Source: Akkermansia muciniphila
GTDB lineage: Bacteria; Pseudomonadota; Gammaproteobacteria; Burkholderiales; Burkholderiaceae_C
Length of the DNA stretch: 64,000 bases
NCBI GenBank assembly: GCA_943331105.2
Contig: CALQKH020000005.1
Coordinates: forward strand, 1 to 64,000
Direction: 5' to 3'
Of the stretch, positions 930 through 8,519 are shown one piece after another. The notes below the pieces were generated by a model. The model had not been told where the DNA came from. It saw only the letters and a program-made list of their open reading frames with translations, and did not search any database. Every line of letters begins with the position of its first letter. Position 1 is the first letter of the stretch. Position numbers and translations under genes: made by a program.

Positions 930-2357
930 ATGTCCGGTATCAACTACAGCGAAAAGATTCCCAACAACGTCAACTTGTCGGAAGACCGCACGCTGCAACG
1001 CGCCCTCGAGCAGTGGCAGCCCAACTTCATCAACTGGTGGGACGACATGGGCCCCGAAGGCTCGACCGACATGGACGTGTACCTGCGCACGGCCGTGAGC
1101 GTGGACCCCCAAGGCTGGGCCCAGTTTGGCCACGTCAAGATGCGTGACTACCGTTGGGGCGTGTTCATGAACCCCGGCGAACAAGACCGCAAGATCCATT
1201 TCGGCGACCACATCGGCGAGAAAGCCTGGCAAGACGTGCCTGGCGAGCACCGCGCCAACCTGCGCCGCATCATCGTGACGCAAGGCGACACCGAGCCAGC
1301 GTCGGTTGAGCAGCAGCGCCACTTGGGCCTGACTGCGCCCAGCATGTACGACCTGCGCAACTTGTTCCAGATCAACGTCGAAGAAGGCCGCCACCTGTGG
1401 GCCATGGTGTACCTGTTGCACAAATATTTCGGCAAAGACGGCCGTGAAGAAGCCGATGCTTTGCTTCAGCGCAACAGCGGCAACGAAGACAACCCCCGCA
1501 TCTTGCAGGCTTTCAACGAGAAGACGCCCGATTGGCTGTCGTTCTTCATGTTCACTTACTTCACCGACCGTGACGGCAAGTTCCAGTTGTGCGCCTTGGC
1601 CGAATCCGCATTCGACCCATTGGCCCGCACCACCAAGTTCATGCTGACCGAAGAAGCGCACCACATGTTCGTGGGCGAGTCCGGTGTGAGCCGCACCATC
1701 CAGCGCACGGTGGACGTGATGAACCAGCTCAAAACCGACGACGTGGGCAAGCTGCGTGCTGCTGGCGTGATCGATCTGCCCACCATCCAGCGCTACATCA
1801 ACTTCCACTTCTCGGTGACCATCGACCTGTTTGGTGCAGACGAGTCGTCGAATGCCGCCACTTTCTACAGCTCTGGCCTCAAGGGCCGTTACGAAGAAGG
1901 CAAGCGTGGCGATGACCACATCTTGAAGGGCAACAGCTACAAGATCTTGTCGGTCGAAGACGGCAAGCTGGTCGAAAAAGAGGTGCCGATGCTCAACGCT
2001 TTGAACGAAGTGCTGCGCGACGACTACATCACCGACTCAAAAGGCGGCATCGACCGTTGGAACCGTGTGATCAGCAAGGCCGGTATTCCTTTCACCTTGA
2101 CTGCTCCTCACAAGGCGTTCCACCGCAACATCGGTTCTTTGTCCGGCTCCAAGATCACGCCCGATGGCCGTGTGGTGACCGATGCCGAGTGGATGGCCAA
2201 AGTGGGCGAGTGGTTGCCCACAAACGAAGACCGTGCCTATGTGGCCAGCCTGATGGGCCGCTGCGTCGAGCCAGGCAAGTTCGCCAACTGGATCGCACCA
2301 CCCGTCATGGGCATCAACCGTCAGCCAGTGGACTTTGATTACGTCCGGTTCAACTGA
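930..2357 (+). CDS. boxB: Benzoyl-CoA 2,3-epoxidase, di-iron subunit BoxB
   Basis: Cytosolic class I di-iron monooxygenase of 475 residues. It converts benzoyl-CoA to 2,3-epoxybenzoyl-CoA using O2 and electrons from BoxA. Both carboxylate-His iron motifs are present: E152-G-R-H155 and E242-A-H-H245, with D213 between them and E122 upstream. This spacing is what I expect for BoxB. The length is normal. The ATG at 930 follows GGAG (ctggagactctc) at good spacing. It sits between boxC and boxA, but the 331-bp gap to boxA is unusually long and carries two large hairpins, so boxB and boxA may not be expressed to the same level. Confidence 0.97.
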   Translation: MSGINYSEKIPNNVNLSEDRTLQRALEQWQPNFINWWDDMGPEGSTDMDVYLRTAVSVDPQGWAQFGHVKMRDYRWGVFMNPGEQDRKIHFGDHIGEKAWQDVPGEHRANLRRIIVTQGDTEPASVEQQRHLGLTAPSMYDLRNLFQINVEEGRHLWAMVYLLHKYFGKDGREEADALLQRNSGNEDNPRILQAFNEKTPDWLSFFMFTYFTDRDGKFQLCALAESAFDPLARTTKFMLTEEAHHMFVGESGVSRTIQRTVDVMNQLKTDDVGKLRAAGVIDLPTIQRYINFHFSVTIDLFGADESSNAATFYSSGLKGRYEEGKRGDDHILKGNSYKILSVEDGKLVEKEVPMLNALNEVLRDDYITDSKGGIDRWNRVISKAGIPFTLTAPHKAFHRNIGSLSGSKITPDGRVVTDAEWMAKVGEWLPTNEDRAYVASLMGRCVEPGKFANWIAPPVMGINRQPVDFDYVRFN

Positions 2358-2375: not shown

Positions 2376-2405
2376 TGCTGCCTCTTCTTCGTTGTGGGGG
2401 CAGCA
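2376..2405 (+). repeat. Small hairpin just after boxB
   Basis: TGCTGCC (2376-2382) pairs with GGCAGCA (2399-2405), and about three further pairs are possible inward with wobbles, around a loop of roughly 10-16 bases. The right arm shares 2403-2405 with the left arm of the next, larger hairpin, so the two structures compete. There is no T-run after it, so it is not a classical Rho-independent terminator. It could stabilise the boxB mRNA end or be part of a switch. Confidence 0.45.
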
Positions 2406-2480
2406 GTTGACAGAGGAAGGGGCGGGTTCCTCATGACGGGGTACCGAAAATCGTCACCCGCCCCTTCCCCTGTCAACTGC
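2403..2480 (+). repeat. Large hairpin element 1 between boxB and boxA
   Basis: A 25-bp inverted repeat (2403-2427 with 2456-2480; one mismatch, A2414 against C2469) encloses a 28-base loop. The loop carries CCTCATGACGGGGTACCG (2429-2446) then AAAATCG (2447-2453). Within it CGG and CCG can pair around a four-base GGTA. The same apical core recurs on the opposite strand in element 2 at 2538-2615, while the outer stems differ in sequence. There is no T-run. It could be a structured RNA, a protein-bound DNA cruciform, or one copy of an interspersed palindromic repeat family. I do not recognise the family. Confidence 0.8.
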
Positions 2481-2537
2481 ATGGGTGCGTAAAGCGCACA
2501 AACACCGGTAGACTGCCGAGGTTAAAACTGGCACAGA

Positions 2538-2615
2538 GCGACGGTGTGGCTTGGGGCTGGGCACCGATTTTCCGGTACTCCGTATGAGGTGTCCGGCCCC
2601 AAGCCACACCGTTGC
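2538..2615 (-). repeat. Large hairpin element 2, inverted relative to element 1
   Basis: Bases 2538-2565 pair with 2588-2615 over 28 positions: 25 Watson-Crick and three G-T wobbles (2540/2613, 2558/2595, 2561/2592), around a 22-base loop. The uninterrupted core arm is ACGGTGTGGCTTGGGGC (2541-2557). Read on the minus strand, 2589-2572 is CCTCATACGGAGTACCGG followed by AAAATCG, matching the apex of element 1. The outer stem sequence is not that of element 1, but a GGGGC/GCCCC step sits at the same distance from the apex in both. It ends about 70 bp before the boxA start. Confidence 0.8.
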
Positions 2616-2688: not shown

Positions 2689-4011
2689 ATGAGCACAGAA
2701 GCGACGCTGATCAAACAACACCTGATCGACCCGGAAATCTGCATCCGCTGCAACACCTGCGAAGCGATTTGCCCGGTCGGCGCGATCACGCACGACTCGC
2801 TCAACTACGTCGTCAAGGCCGACATCTGCAACGGTTGCATGGACTGCATCTCGCCTTGCCCCACGGGCTCGATTGACAACTGGAGGATGGTGCCCAAGGC
2901 CAAGGTCTACAGCATCGAAGAACAACTCAAGTGGTATGACTTGCCCGCCGAATTGAGCGCCGAAGAACTCGCTGCCGCTGGTGGCGAGGGCAATTCTGAT
3001 GAGGCCATGGCGCAAAGTGTTGCGCAAGCCGCCGTGCAAGCTGCCGCCTCTTCGTCATCCGCCGCCACAACCGCCGTCGCTTCAGGCTTCAACTCTGCCC
3101 AGTTCGGCGCGACCATCCCCCCCTGGTCGGCAGCCCACGCATACACCAACCTTTATGGTCCCAAGGCGGCTGAGAAAACCATCACCGCCACCGTGACGGG
3201 CAACCTGCGTGTGACCGAGGTGGGTTTGCAAGAAGGCCAACAAGACTACGACACGCACCACATCGTGCTGGACTTTGGCAGCCTGCCCTTTCCTGTGCTC
3301 GAAGGCCAGTCGATCGGCATCATTCCGCCCGGTGTGGACGCCAACGGCAAACCGCACCACGCCCGCCAATACTCCATTGCCAGCCCGCGCAACGGCGAGC
3401 GCTCCGGACACAACAACCTGTCGCTGACCATCAAGCGCGTGCTCGAAGACCACGACGGAAAGCCGGTGCGCGGCGTTGGCTCCAACTTCATGTGCGATCT
3501 GAATGTGGGCGACAAGGTGCAGGTGATTGGCCCGTTTGGTGCGAGCTTTCTCATGCCCAACCACCCCAAGAGCAACATCGTCATGATCTGCACCGGCACA
3601 GGCAGCGCGCCCATGCGTGCCATGACCGAATGGCGCCGTCGCCTGCGGGCCAGTGGCAAATTCGAGGGCGGCAAACTCATGCTGTTCTTTGGCGCACGCA
3701 CACCCGCCGAGTTGCCTTACTTTGGGCCGTTGAACAACCTGCCCAAAGATTTCATCGACATTGAATTTGCCTTCTCGCGCGAAGTGGGCAAGCCCAAGCG
3801 TTATGTGCAAGACGCCATGCGCGATCGCGCTGCCGACATCGCAGCCCAACTCAAAGACCCGAACACCTGTTTTTATGTGTGCGGCTTGAAAAGCATGGAA
3901 GAGGGCGTGGTCATGGCGCTGCGCGACATCGCACAGAACGCCGGACTCGATTGGGATACCGTGGGTGCGGCGCTGAAAAAAGAAGGCCGTTTGCACCTCG
4001 AAACCTACTGA
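2689..4011 (+). CDS. boxA: Benzoyl-CoA oxygenase reductase component BoxA
   Basis: NADPH-dependent, FAD-containing reductase of 440 residues that delivers electrons to BoxB. The N terminus has two ferredoxin 4Fe-4S motifs, [14 protein letters not shown] (from residue 18) and [14 protein letters not shown]. An Ala/Ser-rich linker (about residues 97-140) follows, then a ferredoxin-NADP reductase module with the FAD motif [12 protein letters not shown] and the nucleotide motif [14 protein letters not shown]. It ends in the typical C-terminal aromatic residue (HLETY). The linker is unusually rich in alanine and serine. The stop is only 6 bases from the next ATG (formate dehydrogenase), so the two genes are very probably co-transcribed. 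Confidence 0.96.
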
Positions 4012-4017
4012 CCACGC

Positions 4018-5730
4018 ATGGCGAATACCACCCACATTGGCCTGGACCAAGTTCGCCAGCAACTGCGCCAGCCCCGAATCCAGCTCAAAGGCCGCCAGGT
4101 CACGCCAGAGGCCCGCGCCGATGTGCAAGCCCTCATCGGTCCTGTGCCGAAAGAAGGCCACCGCCGTGATCTGCTGATCGAGCACCTGCATGTGCTCAAC
4201 GACCACTTCCACGGTCTGTTCGAACGCCACATCGTGGCGCTGGCCGCCGAGATGCGGCTGCCCGTGGTCGAGGTGTTCGAGGTGGCTTCGTTCTACCACC
4301 ACTTTGAGATTCTGAAAGACGATGTGTCAGCCCCACGCATCACCGTGCGGGTGTGCGACAGCCTGAGCTGCAGCCTCGCGGGCAGCGACAGTTTGCTGCG
4401 ACAGTTGCAGCGCGAACTGGTAGGGGATGTGCAGGTCGTCCATGTGCCTTGTCTGGGCCGCTGCGAGCAGGCCCCTGCGGCGCAAGTGGGCCAGCAGGCT
4501 GTGGCGTTTGCCACGGCCCAGGATGTGAGCCGTTTGGTGGTCGAAAACAGCACGCAGCCCTTGGCCTTGCCCCAGGCACTGCGTTTCGACGATTACAAAA
4601 AAGCCGGGGGCTACCAGCTGGCCCAGCAAGTGGCAGCCGGTCTGAAAGACCACGAATCGGTCATCCAGTGTTTGGAGTCTTCTGGCCTGCGTGGCTTGGG
4701 CGGCGCGGGTTTTCCGGCCGGTCGCAAGTGGCGCATCGTGCGAAGCCAGTCCGGCCCGCGCTTGATGGCGGTGAACATCGACGAGGGCGAGCCCGGCACC
4801 TTCAAGGACCGCACTTTCCTGGAAGCCGATCCGCACCGCTTTTTGGAGGGTGTGCTGATCGCTGCCAGCGTGGTGGGCTGCGAGGCGGTGTACATCTATT
4901 TGCGTGACGAGTACCACGAAGCGCGTGTTTTGCTGACCGAAGAATTGGCTGCGCTGAAACTGAATCCGCCTTGCGCGCTGCCGCGCATCGAATTGCGCCG
5001 TGGCGCGGGGGCCTACATCTGCGGCGAAGAGTCGGCCATGATCGAAAGCATCGAAGGCAAACGGGGCGAGCCGCGCATGCGCCCGCCCTACATCGCCGAG
5101 GTCGGGCTGTTTGGCCGCCCCACGCTCGAGCACAACTTCGAGACGCTTTACTGGGTGCGCGAACTCATTGAACAAGGTGCAGAAAGTTTTGCATCGCATG
5201 GCCGCCACGGTCGCCAGGGCCTGCGCCGCTTCAGTGTGAGCGGGCGCGTCAAGCAACCTGGCGTCAAGCTCGCGCCTGCGGGGATCACGCTGCGCGAGCT
5301 GGTCGATGAATACTGCGGCGGCATGGCCGTGGGCCACACGCTCTACGCCTACCTGCCTGGCGGTGCCAGTGGCGGCATCTTGCCCGCTCGCTTGGCCGAT
5401 GTGCCGCTGGACTTTGACACACTGCAGCCCCACGGCTGCTTCATCGGCTCGGCCGCCGTGATGGTACTCAGCCAACATGACAGTGCCCGCGAAGCGGCTC
5501 TGAATGTGATGCGCTTTTTCGCGCACGAGAGCTGCGGCCAGTGCACGCCCTGCCGTGTGGGTACCGACAAGGCCGCGCAACTCATGACCGCTGAGGTCTG
5601 GGACGCCAACACCTTGGAAGACCTCGCGCAAGTCATGGGCGATGCGTCCATCTGCGGTCTGGGGCAGGCCGCGCCGAACCCAATCCGCTGCGTGTTGCAG
5701 TATTTCCCGCACGAAGTGGGGGCAGCATGA
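4018..5730 (+). CDS. fdsB: NAD-linked formate dehydrogenase, fused gamma-beta subunit (NuoE-NuoF type)
   Basis: Electron-output subunit of a soluble NAD-dependent formate dehydrogenase, 570 residues. The N-terminal half-domain is NuoE/FdsG-like, with its helical segment and the 2Fe-2S ligands C113-x4-C118 and C145-x3-C149. It is followed by a NuoF/FdsB-like module with the glycine-rich GLRGLGGAGFPAGRKW, the FMN/NADH stretch NIDEGEPGTFKDR, and a 4Fe-4S site (C506-GQ-C509-TP-C512 and C546). FdsG and FdsB are commonly separate genes. No separate fdsG lies here, so I read this as a fusion. It starts 6 bases after boxA and overlaps fdsA by ATGA. Confidence 0.92.
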   Translation: MANTTHIGLDQVRQQLRQPRIQLKGRQVTPEARADVQALIGPVPKEGHRRDLLIEHLHVLNDHFHGLFERHIVALAAEMRLPVVEVFEVASFYHHFEILKDDVSAPRITVRVCDSLSCSLAGSDSLLRQLQRELVGDVQVVHVPCLGRCEQAPAAQVGQQAVAFATAQDVSRLVVENSTQPLALPQALRFDDYKKAGGYQLAQQVAAGLKDHESVIQCLESSGLRGLGGAGFPAGRKWRIVRSQSGPRLMAVNIDEGEPGTFKDRTFLEADPHRFLEGVLIAASVVGCEAVYIYLRDEYHEARVLLTEELAALKLNPPCALPRIELRRGAGAYICGEESAMIESIEGKRGEPRMRPPYIAEVGLFGRPTLEHNFETLYWVRELIEQGAESFASHGRHGRQGLRRFSVSGRVKQPGVKLAPAGITLRELVDEYCGGMAVGHTLYAYLPGGASGGILPARLADVPLDFDTLQPHGCFIGSAAVMVLSQHDSAREAALNVMRFFAHESCGQCTPCRVGTDKAAQLMTAEVWDANTLEDLAQVMGDASICGLGQAAPNPIRCVLQYFPHEVGAA

Positions 5731-8519
5731 GCACGGTTCAATTCACTCTCAACGGCCAAAGCGTCGAAGCGCCTGCCGGTAAAAGCATTTTCAACATCGC
5801 CAAAGAATTGGGCATTGCCATCCCGCACCTGTGCCACAAGGAAGGCTTGGCACCCGACGGCAATTGCCGAGCTTGCGTGGTTGAAATTGCAGGCGAGCGC
5901 ACCCTGGCCCCGAGTTGCTGCCGCAACGCCACGCCCGGCATGCAGGTGCGCACCGACAGCGAGCGCGCGGTCAAAAGCCAGAAGATGGTGTTGGAGATGC
6001 TGCTGGCCGACTTGCCTGAGCAGGGCCACAAATGGCTGGACGATCGGGCTGAAGCGCCGCACGGCGAACTGAGTCAATGGGCCGAGCACCACGGCGTGCA
6101 AGTGCGCCCGCAATTGGCAGCCCTGCGCCGTGAAGCCGTGCCCGCCGACCTGTCGCACCCCGCCATGGCCGTGAACTTGGACGCTTGCATCCAGTGCAAC
6201 CGTTGTGAGCGCGCTTGCCGAGACCTGCAGGTCAACGACGTGATTGGTTTGGCTTTCCGGGGCGCGCACACGCAGGTGGTGTTTGACCTGGCCGATCCGA
6301 TGGGCGGCAGCAGTTGCGTGGGCTGCGGCGAATGCGTGCAGGCTTGCCCCACAGGGGCGCTCATGCCCAAGAGCCATATGGGACCGCAAACCGTTGACCG
6401 CGAAGTCGACTCGGTGTGCCCGTTTTGCGGGGTGGGTTGCCTGGTCACCTACCAAGTGCGGGATGAAAAAATCATCAGCGTCAAAGGCCGAGAAGGCCCG
6501 GCCAACGAAGGGCGTTTGTGCGTCAAAGGCCGTTTTGGCATGGACTACATCCACAGCCCAGACCGCATCACCAAGCCCTTGATCCGCAAGCCGGGCGCGG
6601 CCAAGGATGTGGGCCTCATCGATGGCCACACCGACTGGCGCGAAGTCTTCCGCGAAGCCACCTGGGAAGAAGCACTGGAAGTGGCCGCACAGCCCCTGAA
6701 CGCGATGCGTCAGAAACATGGCCCCAAGTCGCTCGCCGGTTTTGGCTCGGCCAAAGGCAGTAACGAAGAGGCTTACCTTTTCCAGAAATTGGTACGCACA
6801 GGCTTTGGCAGCAACAACGTGGACCACTGCACCCGCCTGTGCCATGCGTCCAGTGTGGCGGCCTTGCTCGAAGGTGTGGGCTCGGGTGCAGTCAGCAACC
6901 CGGTGCGCGATGTCGAACATTCCGACCTCATCCTGGTGATCGGCTCCAACCCCACCAGCAACCACCCGGTGGCCGCCACCTGGATGAAGAATGCTGCCCA
7001 GCGCGGCACACGCATTGTTCTGGCGGACCCGCGCATCACCGACATTGGGCGTCACGCTTGGCGCACTCTGCCCTTCAAGGCCGATACCGACGTGGCGCTG
7101 CTCAACGCCATGCTGTATGTGATCGTGACCGAGAACCTGTGCGACGAAGCCTTCATGCGCGAGCGTGCCGACAACGTGGCCGAACTCAAGGCCCATGTGC
7201 AGGCCTTCACGCCCGAAGCCATGAGCGCGGTCTGCGGCATCCCGGCCGAGACCATCCGCGAAGTGGCGCGGGCCTATGCCAGTGCCCAGGCCGCCATGAT
7301 TTTGTGGGGCATGGGCGTGAGCCAGCATGTGCATGGCACCGACAACGTGCGTTGCCTGATCGCGTTGGCCAGCATCACCGGCCAAATTGGCCGCCCCGGC
7401 ACGGGTCTGCATCCGCTGCGCGGCCAAAACAACGTGCAAGGCGCCAGCGACGCGGGCCTGATCCCGATGATGTACCCCAACTACCAGCGTGTGAGCGACA
7501 AGTCGGCGCACGACTGGTTCGAGAAATTTTGGGATACCTCACTGGATGACCAACCCGGTTACACCGTGGTGGAGATCATGCAAAAAGCGCTGGCCCCGGA
7601 CAGCGACCCACACAAGGTGCGCGGCATGTACATCATGGGTGAGAACCCTGCCATGAGCGATCCCGACTTGAACCACGCACGCCACGCCTTGGCCAGCTTG
7701 CAGCACTTGGTGGTGCAAGACATCTTCTTGACCGAAACCGCTTGGCTGGCCGATGTGGTGTTGCCCGCCAGCGCTTGGCCCGAAAAAACCGGCACGGTGA
7801 GTAACACCGACCGCACGGTGCAAATGGGTCGCCAGGCGGTGCAACCGCCGGATAATGCGAAACCTGACTTGTGGATCATCCAGCAGATCGCCAAGCGCAT
7901 GGGCCTGGACTGGCACTACGCGGGCGAACACGAGGGCGTGTCAGAGGTCTATGAAGAAATGCGCCAAGCCATGGCTCCGGCGATTGGCGGCATCGACTGG
8001 GCGCGGCTGGATGCGGGCTCGGTCACTTACCCTTGCTTGAGCGCCGACGACCCGGGCCAGTCCATCGTTTTCCAGGACCACTTTCCGACCCAAGACGGTC
8101 GGGTGAAATTGGTGCCTGTCGATTTGATTCCAGCAGCAGAACTGCCCGATGCCGACTTTCCCTGGGTGCTCATCACCGGTCGTCAGCTGGAACATTGGCA
8201 CACCGGCAGCATGACGCGTCGTGCCACGGTCCTGGATGCGTTGGAGCCTGCGGCCACGGCCTCCATGTGCGGCGCTGACATGGCCCGCATCGGCTTGGAG
8301 CCGGGTCAGCGCATCCGAGTGGCCTCTCGCCGTGGGGCGGTGGAGATGCAACTGCGGCAAGACGACGGCACCCCAGTTGGCGCAGTTTTCATTCCGTTTG
8401 CCTATGTCGAAGCGGCGGCCAATGAATTGACCCATGCCGCTTTAGACCCTTTTGGCAAAATTCCTGAGTTCAAGTTTTGTGCAGTGCGGATCGAAACTGT
8501 GACGGGTACAGCCGCATAA
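5727..8519 (+). CDS. fdsA: NAD-linked formate dehydrogenase, catalytic alpha subunit
   Basis: Molybdopterin (bis-MGD) subunit oxidising formate to CO2 in the cytosol, 930 residues. An N-terminal 2Fe-2S ferredoxin domain (CHKEGLAPDGNCRACVVEI) is followed by NuoG-like clusters (CIQCNRCERAC; CVGCGECVQACPTGAL), then the 4Fe-4S CPFCGVGC motif and the molybdopterin oxidoreductase domains. The metal ligand is Cys372 with the following catalytic His (TRLCHASS), i.e. the cysteine rather than selenocysteine form. The C terminus has a molydopterin-dinucleotide-binding domain with ITGRQLEHWHTGSMTRR. No Tat signal is present, consistent with a soluble enzyme. It overlaps fdsB by four bases. Confidence 0.95.
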   Translation: MSTVQFTLNGQSVEAPAGKSIFNIAKELGIAIPHLCHKEGLAPDGNCRACVVEIAGERTLAPSCCRNATPGMQVRTDSERAVKSQKMVLEMLLADLPEQGHKWLDDRAEAPHGELSQWAEHHGVQVRPQLAALRREAVPADLSHPAMAVNLDACIQCNRCERACRDLQVNDVIGLAFRGAHTQVVFDLADPMGGSSCVGCGECVQACPTGALMPKSHMGPQTVDREVDSVCPFCGVGCLVTYQVRDEKIISVKGREGPANEGRLCVKGRFGMDYIHSPDRITKPLIRKPGAAKDVGLIDGHTDWREVFREATWEEALEVAAQPLNAMRQKHGPKSLAGFGSAKGSNEEAYLFQKLVRTGFGSNNVDHCTRLCHASSVAALLEGVGSGAVSNPVRDVEHSDLILVIGSNPTSNHPVAATWMKNAAQRGTRIVLADPRITDIGRHAWRTLPFKADTDVALLNAMLYVIVTENLCDEAFMRERADNVAELKAHVQAFTPEAMSAVCGIPAETIREVARAYASAQAAMILWGMGVSQHVHGTDNVRCLIALASITGQIGRPGTGLHPLRGQNNVQGASDAGLIPMMYPNYQRVSDKSAHDWFEKFWDTSLDDQPGYTVVEIMQKALAPDSDPHKVRGMYIMGENPAMSDPDLNHARHALASLQHLVVQDIFLTETAWLADVVLPASAWPEKTGTVSNTDRTVQMGRQAVQPPDNAKPDLWIIQQIAKRMGLDWHYAGEHEGVSEVYEEMRQAMAPAIGGIDWARLDAGSVTYPCLSADDPGQSIVFQDHFPTQDGRVKLVPVDLIPAAELPDADFPWVLITGRQLEHWHTGSMTRRATVLDALEPAATASMCGADMARIGLEPGQRIRVASRRGAVEMQLRQDDGTPVGAVFIPFAYVEAAANELTHAALDPFGKIPEFKFCAVRIETVTGTAA

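Follow-up and report, generated by a model that had tools for sequence, protein, structure and literature searches.

We propose that the two hairpins in the boxB-boxA gap of the window (the whole 64,000-nucleotide stretch of contig CALQKH020000005.1 that was analysed) form an outward-facing doublet of a dispersed, BIME-like palindromic DNA repeat, the core strand of which acts as a folded single strand, probably single-stranded DNA (ssDNA); we hold this reading with modest confidence as the probable one. Because the palindrome is dispersed, with eight of its ten copies in this genome located elsewhere, the element is not specific to the box operon.

An earlier note on this DNA had described two hairpins with different stems and with apices matching in opposite orientation, and direct reading of the sequence confirmed both the stems and the apices. 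When the core is oriented as CGATTT...GTAC...ATGAGG, hairpin 1 is '-' and hairpin 2 is '+', so that the doublet, written -/+, faces outward. The features are as follows (the names of the two genes are taken from the earlier note).

930..2357, plus strand: boxB, the upstream neighbour
2403..2480, core on the minus strand, antisense to the box operon: hairpin 1, with an outer stem of 25 positions
2403-2427/2456-2480: arms of hairpin 1, with one A-C mismatch on the plus strand (G-T on the minus strand)
2429..2453, minus strand: core of hairpin 1, CGATTTTCGGTACCCCGTCATGAGG, read as CGATTT, inner stem, GTACC, inner stem, ATGAGG
2481..2537, no strand: spacer of the -/+ doublet, containing TAGACT at 2509-2514
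2538..2615, core on the plus strand, sense to the box operon: hairpin 2, with an outer stem of 28 pairs
2538-2565/2588-2615: arms of hairpin 2, 28 pairs including three G-T
2565..2589, plus strand: core of hairpin 2, CGATTTTCCGGTACTCCGTATGAGG
2689..4011, plus strand: boxA, the downstream neighbour

Both strands of both hairpins fold far more stably than 200 dinucleotide shuffles, none of which was as stable as either hairpin, whether folded as RNA (z from −5.3 to −8.5) or as DNA (z from −5.8 to −7.7). The covariance model R1, which includes both sequences, matched hairpin 1 at 2399-2483 on the minus strand (91.1 bits, E 3.3e-17) and hairpin 2 at 2535-2619 on the plus strand (75.4 bits, E 1.4e-13); the window contains no third copy of the family. 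The previous opinion that plain termination is unlikely still holds, as a simple consensus scan of positions 2300-2720 returned no terminator-like site (a GC hairpin with a T-run). The same kind of scan returned no sigma-70-like site in that interval, and the 3' flank of the family copies is mildly A-rich, not T-rich. Further downstream, the translations of two ORFs following boxA (4018-8519) resemble the beta and alpha subunits of formate dehydrogenase.

The hairpins belong to a family. A covariance model built from 112 elements, a search of the kind that the earlier note had recommended, found matches well beyond the box locus, namely ten copies in the genome of origin, where pattern searches found the strict core at three places and a looser core at nine. 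Two of these copies occupy the boxB-boxA gap, three lie inside a uvrA-like gene, two between recQ and queC, and one each at a GST/epimerase gene pair, beside sodB-xseA, and at dnaJ, where the core is degenerate (genes were named by reading translations). Within the genus, the core pattern is present in 82 of 90 genomes (51/56 of those with a completeness of 90% or more and a contamination of 5% or less), as compared to 0/90 for a reversed control pattern; a few of these matches are due to chance, at least that of L030, which has no stem. The strict pattern occurs in 2/200 genomes of the taxonomic family, both within the genus, and the model matched 54 of 299 family genomes, distributed over 32 of the 126 sampled genera, with at most 15 candidates scored per genome, so that weak matches may have been missed. 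In 300 genomes sampled across the order there were four model matches, all within the family (ten family members are listed in that sample), and about 290 genomes outside the family yielded none at E 1e-6, again with at most 15 candidates scored per genome. The core pattern does occur outside the family in 9/385 genomes, all nine with stem scores of 8 or less; among 201 pattern matches in the loci examined, some of them repeated, 127 have a stem score of at least 13 and 74 a score of at most 10, with none at 11-12. Among the matches listed, the named records bearing true elements include Limnohabitans, Rhodoferax and Polaromonas and, judged by the named records, the taxonomic family is Comamonadaceae. 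A true element is also carried by a MAG filed as Cryomorphaceae (L046), which we suspect to be misbinned. An origin from phages or plasmids was considered and rejected: blastn found no match to the element in either, and two patterns run on viral contigs gave 0 and 5 matches, all five without a stem.

The unit is a palindrome of about 85 nt, which comprises an outer stem of about 25 bp, a fixed asymmetric apex (CGATTT / GTAC / ATGAGG) and an inner stem that covaries. The outer stem varies freely between loci and yet stays paired, and double changes were observed in 26 of the 27 pairs predicted from the 112 distinct elements. For a 28-pair structure set by hand, 92.9% of the cells are paired (55.9% in shuffled alignments), 1119 cells are double-changed (335 when shuffled), and the covariation is 0.903 (0.209 when shuffled, 0.12-0.18 when slid). 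Double changes affect 27 pairs, a number that says little by itself (25.2 in shuffles, 12 of 500 of which reach 27); the other covariation measures are far above the shuffles. The same loop on unlike but paired stems, which had been noticed in the two hairpins, is thus a genuine covarying structure at the scale of the family alignment. Invariance of the closing C-G pair and of the unpaired GATTT and ATGAG strands comes, in the 112-element set, from the way the set was built, and most copies were found with a pattern that fixes CGATTT, GTAC and ATGAGG; conservation of the apex is accordingly established in syntenic gaps and is elsewhere partly built in by the search.

Those syntenic gaps were provided by the box operon itself. 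A boxA match was obtained in 56 of the 57 genus genomes searched, the best 30 loci were taken, and the start of boxA was readable in 29. All 29 gaps contain hairpins, ordered --+ in 18, -+ in eight, ---+ in one, and as a single + in two gaps cut by a contig end, so that the -/+ arrangement is found in 27; it follows that the common ancestor of the genus members examined already had the doublet, which has mostly been kept since. The exact core is found in 69 of the 76 hairpins in these gaps, which were scanned, like the ybeY gaps described below, with up to two substitutions, such that more decayed hairpins would escape; in one more gap of the genus, L273, hairpin 1 is the only one seen. Across 18 aligned gaps, hand-chosen from the 29, the core hexamers are 100% identical, the arms 83-88%, the inner parts 66-79% and the spacer 65%. 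One orthologous pair of box gaps displays compensatory changes in both the outer and the inner stems, and the arms of adjacent same-way hairpins have apparently recombined in L155 and L162.

This constancy in 29 gaps, with mostly exact cores, is what one would expect of a dedicated regulator of the box operon setting the BoxB:BoxA ratio, as the earlier note had suggested. We give that proposal very little credence, since it fits neither the eight own-genome copies found elsewhere nor the other genera, in which 0/26 readable boxB-boxA gaps contain a hairpin (among the 27 best-scoring loci of 93 non-genus genomes with a boxA match; in 12 of the 26, fewer than 100 nt separate the boxB stop from the CIRC codon of boxA). 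The note had also stated that many identical copies with a linked transposase would argue against a box regulator: the copies are indeed many, but they are not identical and no linked transposase was found in the regions examined. No target-site duplication was seen either. A dispersed doublet might possibly set the BoxB:BoxA ratio as a putative side effect.

Close pairs of copies nearly always face outward. In the clustered set, 40 of 43 pairs are -/+ and three are same-way, with core-to-core distances of 106-370 bp; of the -/+ pairs, nine are spaced at 135-137 bp, as is usual in box gaps, and orthologues are therefore among them. Without clustering (n=92), 71 pairs are -/+, 20 are same-way, all in box gaps, and one is +/- (L121), located at a contig end and hence absent from the clustered count. 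Same-way neighbours within 450 bp were found in box gaps only, 141-160 bp apart core to core. The family therefore displays what defines a BIME, inverse-orientation palindrome pairs with a variable linker, and of the readings first offered it is the DNA hairpin, or interspersed REP/BIME-like repeat, that survives. It is also worth recording that the doublet spacer of L022 (cores at 1500 and 1870, 370 bp apart) contains a REP-like palindrome of the GTGGGAGC type, and that GTAGCGC-type palindromes, another REP-like type, stand beside doublets in the spacers of L059 (a Polaromonas MAG), L256 and L263.

Copies are rare in divergent gaps. The 101 cluster representatives comprise 61 codirectional, 22 convergent, nine coding, five divergent and four edge contexts, as compared to 49 codirectional, six convergent and six divergent among the 61 adjacent gene pairs of the window, and to 100, 14 and 31, respectively, at RAYT loci (mostly one locus repeated); these context counts, like those given below for wobbles, carry some error, as the simple gene caller missed some genes (for instance, ORFs in the 1.7-kb gap of L112). 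We considered and rejected the idea that the outward hairpins carry a gene between them: the ~600-bp gene enclosed by the two L037 copies reads as sodB, not as a transposase. By its translation, this sodB-like gene lies between xseA and an SDR gene, and a similar gene also stands beside copies in L020, L032, L009, L027 and L241.

The core strand is constrained whatever the direction of the neighbouring genes. Read on this strand, the stem wobbles of the 101 cluster representatives are G-T in 131 cases and A-C in 18, with 70 copies leaning to G-T and five to A-C, these representatives being partly dependent because orthologous box copies were in some cases split between clusters; the ratio is 145:23 in 162 copies. 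Among 225 unique copies, it is 86:6 in codirectional sense, 73:9 in codirectional antisense, 21:4 in convergent, 8:2 in divergent, 8:1 in coding sense, 23:3 in coding antisense and 12:5 in edge contexts. As the bias persists in copies antisense to operons (73:9) and to coding sequences (23:3), the strand under selection is not that of the host mRNA and, as the bias is found in all gene directions, the core strand is the one that must fold. This folded strand is more likely ssDNA than RNA. G-T pairs are tolerated in RNA and DNA alike, such that an RNA produced from the element's own promoter is a possible alternative for the core strand, and part of the bias could be mimicked by C-to-T changes falling preferentially on an exposed strand.

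A structured RNA would act either as part of the host mRNA or as a short transcript started at a promoter of its own, located in the 5' flank or the spacer, and its apex would be an internal loop to which a protein binds. Such an RNA would account for a covarying stem with fixed internal-loop and terminal-loop sequences, and for a G-T tolerance confined to one strand. The motif TAGACT, present in all 18 aligned box gaps at a near-fixed distance before hairpin 2, would also suit a short transcript. However, TAGACT is found too in L286, where no family hairpin was detected, and it is absent from most of the non-box spacers listed. It is thus probably a boxA-local signal that is not part of the element and a candidate −10 element of a boxA promoter; a spacer promoter as a general part of the element was discarded on account of this box-local appearance. 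Further evidence against RNA comes from the equally strong wobble bias of antisense copies, from the clustered single copies, which are more often antisense than sense to the gene (22 vs 8, or 14 vs 7 once coding ones are removed), and from Rfam, which gave no match at the gathering score (window, 14 loci and part of L112) and, at permissive E values up to 5, only weak generic hairpin families, mainly microRNA, at 2350-2690. We therefore regard the structured RNA as unlikely.

Knowing that REP-associated tyrosine transposases (RAYT, or TnpA-REP) reside in these genomes, one may ask whether the element is simply their REP or REPIN. Y1_Tnp matches were found in 85 of 90 genus genomes, and two of three scanned proteins pass the cut-off of the NCBIfam model REP_Tyr_transpos, the third, encoded beside gltB, scoring 78.9 for a cut-off of 80. 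The doublet organisation agrees with this idea, as do the class B elements (16 of 227 copies), in which the hairpin lies in the middle of a larger palindrome terminated by GGGGTCAGATC, a motif that flanks the RAYTs. These elements, with GGGGTCAGATCAACATTAATT ends, occur in L014, L017, L026, L033, L035, L046, L049 and others, L014 being derived from G204, which has 27 core matches.

Several lines of evidence nevertheless make a plain REP or REPIN quite improbable. First, the RAYTs have repeats of their own: at 26 of the 28 loci L186-L213 (L184 and L185, which harbour another kind of Y1_Tnp, were left out) the RAYT, mostly located beside a gltB-like gene as judged from translations, is flanked on either side by inverted GGGGTCAGATC motifs, and TGTAGGAGC-type palindromes also occur in RAYT flanks. 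Second, the element was found at 0/30 Y1_Tnp loci and in 4/20 further RAYT regions, three times beside uvrA and once more than 6 kb away. Third, GGGGTCAGAT is absent within about 110 nt on either side of the core in 199/227 copies. Fourth, the foot of the hairpin bears no conserved tag, the information content not exceeding 0.15 bits between −40 and −30 in 77 clustered class A copies (C-rich only) and 0.33 bits in 110 unclustered copies (C/A-rich). In addition, Y1_Tnp matches were obtained in all eight genus genomes devoid of a core match, and core matches in all five devoid of a Y1_Tnp match, the assemblies of which are 58-88% complete. The RAYTs may sometimes carry the element along, as in class B. 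As a mobiliser of class A they find no support, their loci being mostly devoid of the element and their flanks bearing other palindromes.

Two other loci inform on the fate of the copies. In the gap between ybeY and a convergent helicase gene (30 loci, with 44 genomes matched), 15 loci have a -/+ doublet, four have one copy each, which in one of them lies at a contig end, and nine have none, some of the nine having a different downstream gene; two were unreadable. The doublet fills this gap, which measures 1 and 3 nt in two loci without it, as if the doublet had come or gone as one unit, and L323, L326 and L335 resemble hairpin-mediated deletions. Such apparent deletions, together with the chimeric arms, indicate that the palindromes recombine, and they lend some colour to the idea of selfish or neutral palindromes kept perfect by template-switch (quasi-palindrome) correction alone, without selection. 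We consider this very improbable, as neither the retention of an asymmetric apex in syntenic gaps nor the wobble bias towards one strand follows from correction alone. The second locus is a uvrA-like gene (L115:357-6851), which encodes a 2164-residue protein matching UvrA models (1930 bits) and carries four in-frame copies in its linkers, three antisense copies reading GSSYGGGTPKSSP and one sense copy GDDFGVPPPHEE. Copies within the same kind of gene were also found in L042, L067, L077, L134, L214 and L215. The coding copies were seen in this one uvrA-like gene only, and the family is otherwise mostly intergenic.

Taking the hairpins as a dispersed palindromic DNA repeat, we propose the following mechanism. 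The outer stem of about 25 bp would need only to pair, its role being to fold the unit, and the fixed asymmetric apex would be the recognition site. The core strand, as folded ssDNA, would be read by a putative strand-specific enzyme or binding protein, which may have copied or moved the units in the past. Effects on the box mRNA (stability, processing or polarity) would be secondary. The long upkeep at fixed loci, with compensatory change, argues for a host function beyond mobility. We tentatively extend this proposal, as a doubtful option, to a chromosomal ssDNA recognition system in its own right, in which the apex of outward doublets would be read on one strand by a putative non-RAYT enzyme, and which, tolerated even inside uvrA, would be kept for a host role, such as replication restart, recombination or ssDNA uptake. 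A repeat that is spread across many genera of one family, covaries cleanly, keeps its apex fixed and bears a strand signature independent of transcription offers a concrete test of whether folded-ssDNA sites, other than those of the REP/RAYT, integron attC and IS200/IS605 systems, are kept in bacterial chromosomes. It also cautions against taking such hairpins for operon-specific regulators.

Rickettsia palindromic elements are palindromes inserted in frame in protein genes. The present element similarly has in-frame copies in a protein gene, but it is mostly intergenic and has a conserved apex and a covarying stem. The class B copies, flanked by inverted GGGGTCAGATC ends, recall REPINs; however, only 16/227 copies are so flanked, and the conserved part is here the centre. 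REP and BIME sequences, as described in PMC8266576, resemble the element in being extragenic palindromes that form inverse-orientation pairs with a variable linker and have one functional strand. They differ from it in size (20-50 nt, as compared to about 85) and in copy number, which reaches hundreds or thousands in the genomes named in that paper, as compared to ten here. Furthermore, the element has no GTAG-type tetranucleotide 5' of the palindrome, its stems are unlike between copies, no cognate RAYT (tnpA-REP) gene was found flanked by copies at close range, and its doublets are nearly always outward. Lacking both the GTAG tag and a cognate transposase, it is not assigned to the RAYT/REP group, and it is the one-strand wobble bias, by itself, that may point towards a strand-specific recognition of single strands, as in TnpA-REP. 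A search of PMC3733652 for six genus names gave no mention of any. Another close description is that of the Beta-proteobacterial repeat element (BRE), which PMC3110155 presents as a GC-rich sequence of about 90 bp and of unknown function, found by sequence similarity in Polaromonas, Rhodoferax, Delftia and Acidovorax and occurring in Bordetella, mostly intergenic with some copies wholly inside coding sequences, and forming abutting tandem arrays (VNTR). The size, the GC-richness, the mostly intergenic location, the coding copies and the overlapping genera are common to both. Unlike BRE, the present element has locus-specific stems, was not seen in abutting arrays and gave no model match in the roughly 290 genomes outside the family. 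Compared by description rather than by sequence, the element has perhaps been partly seen before as BRE (PMC3110155).
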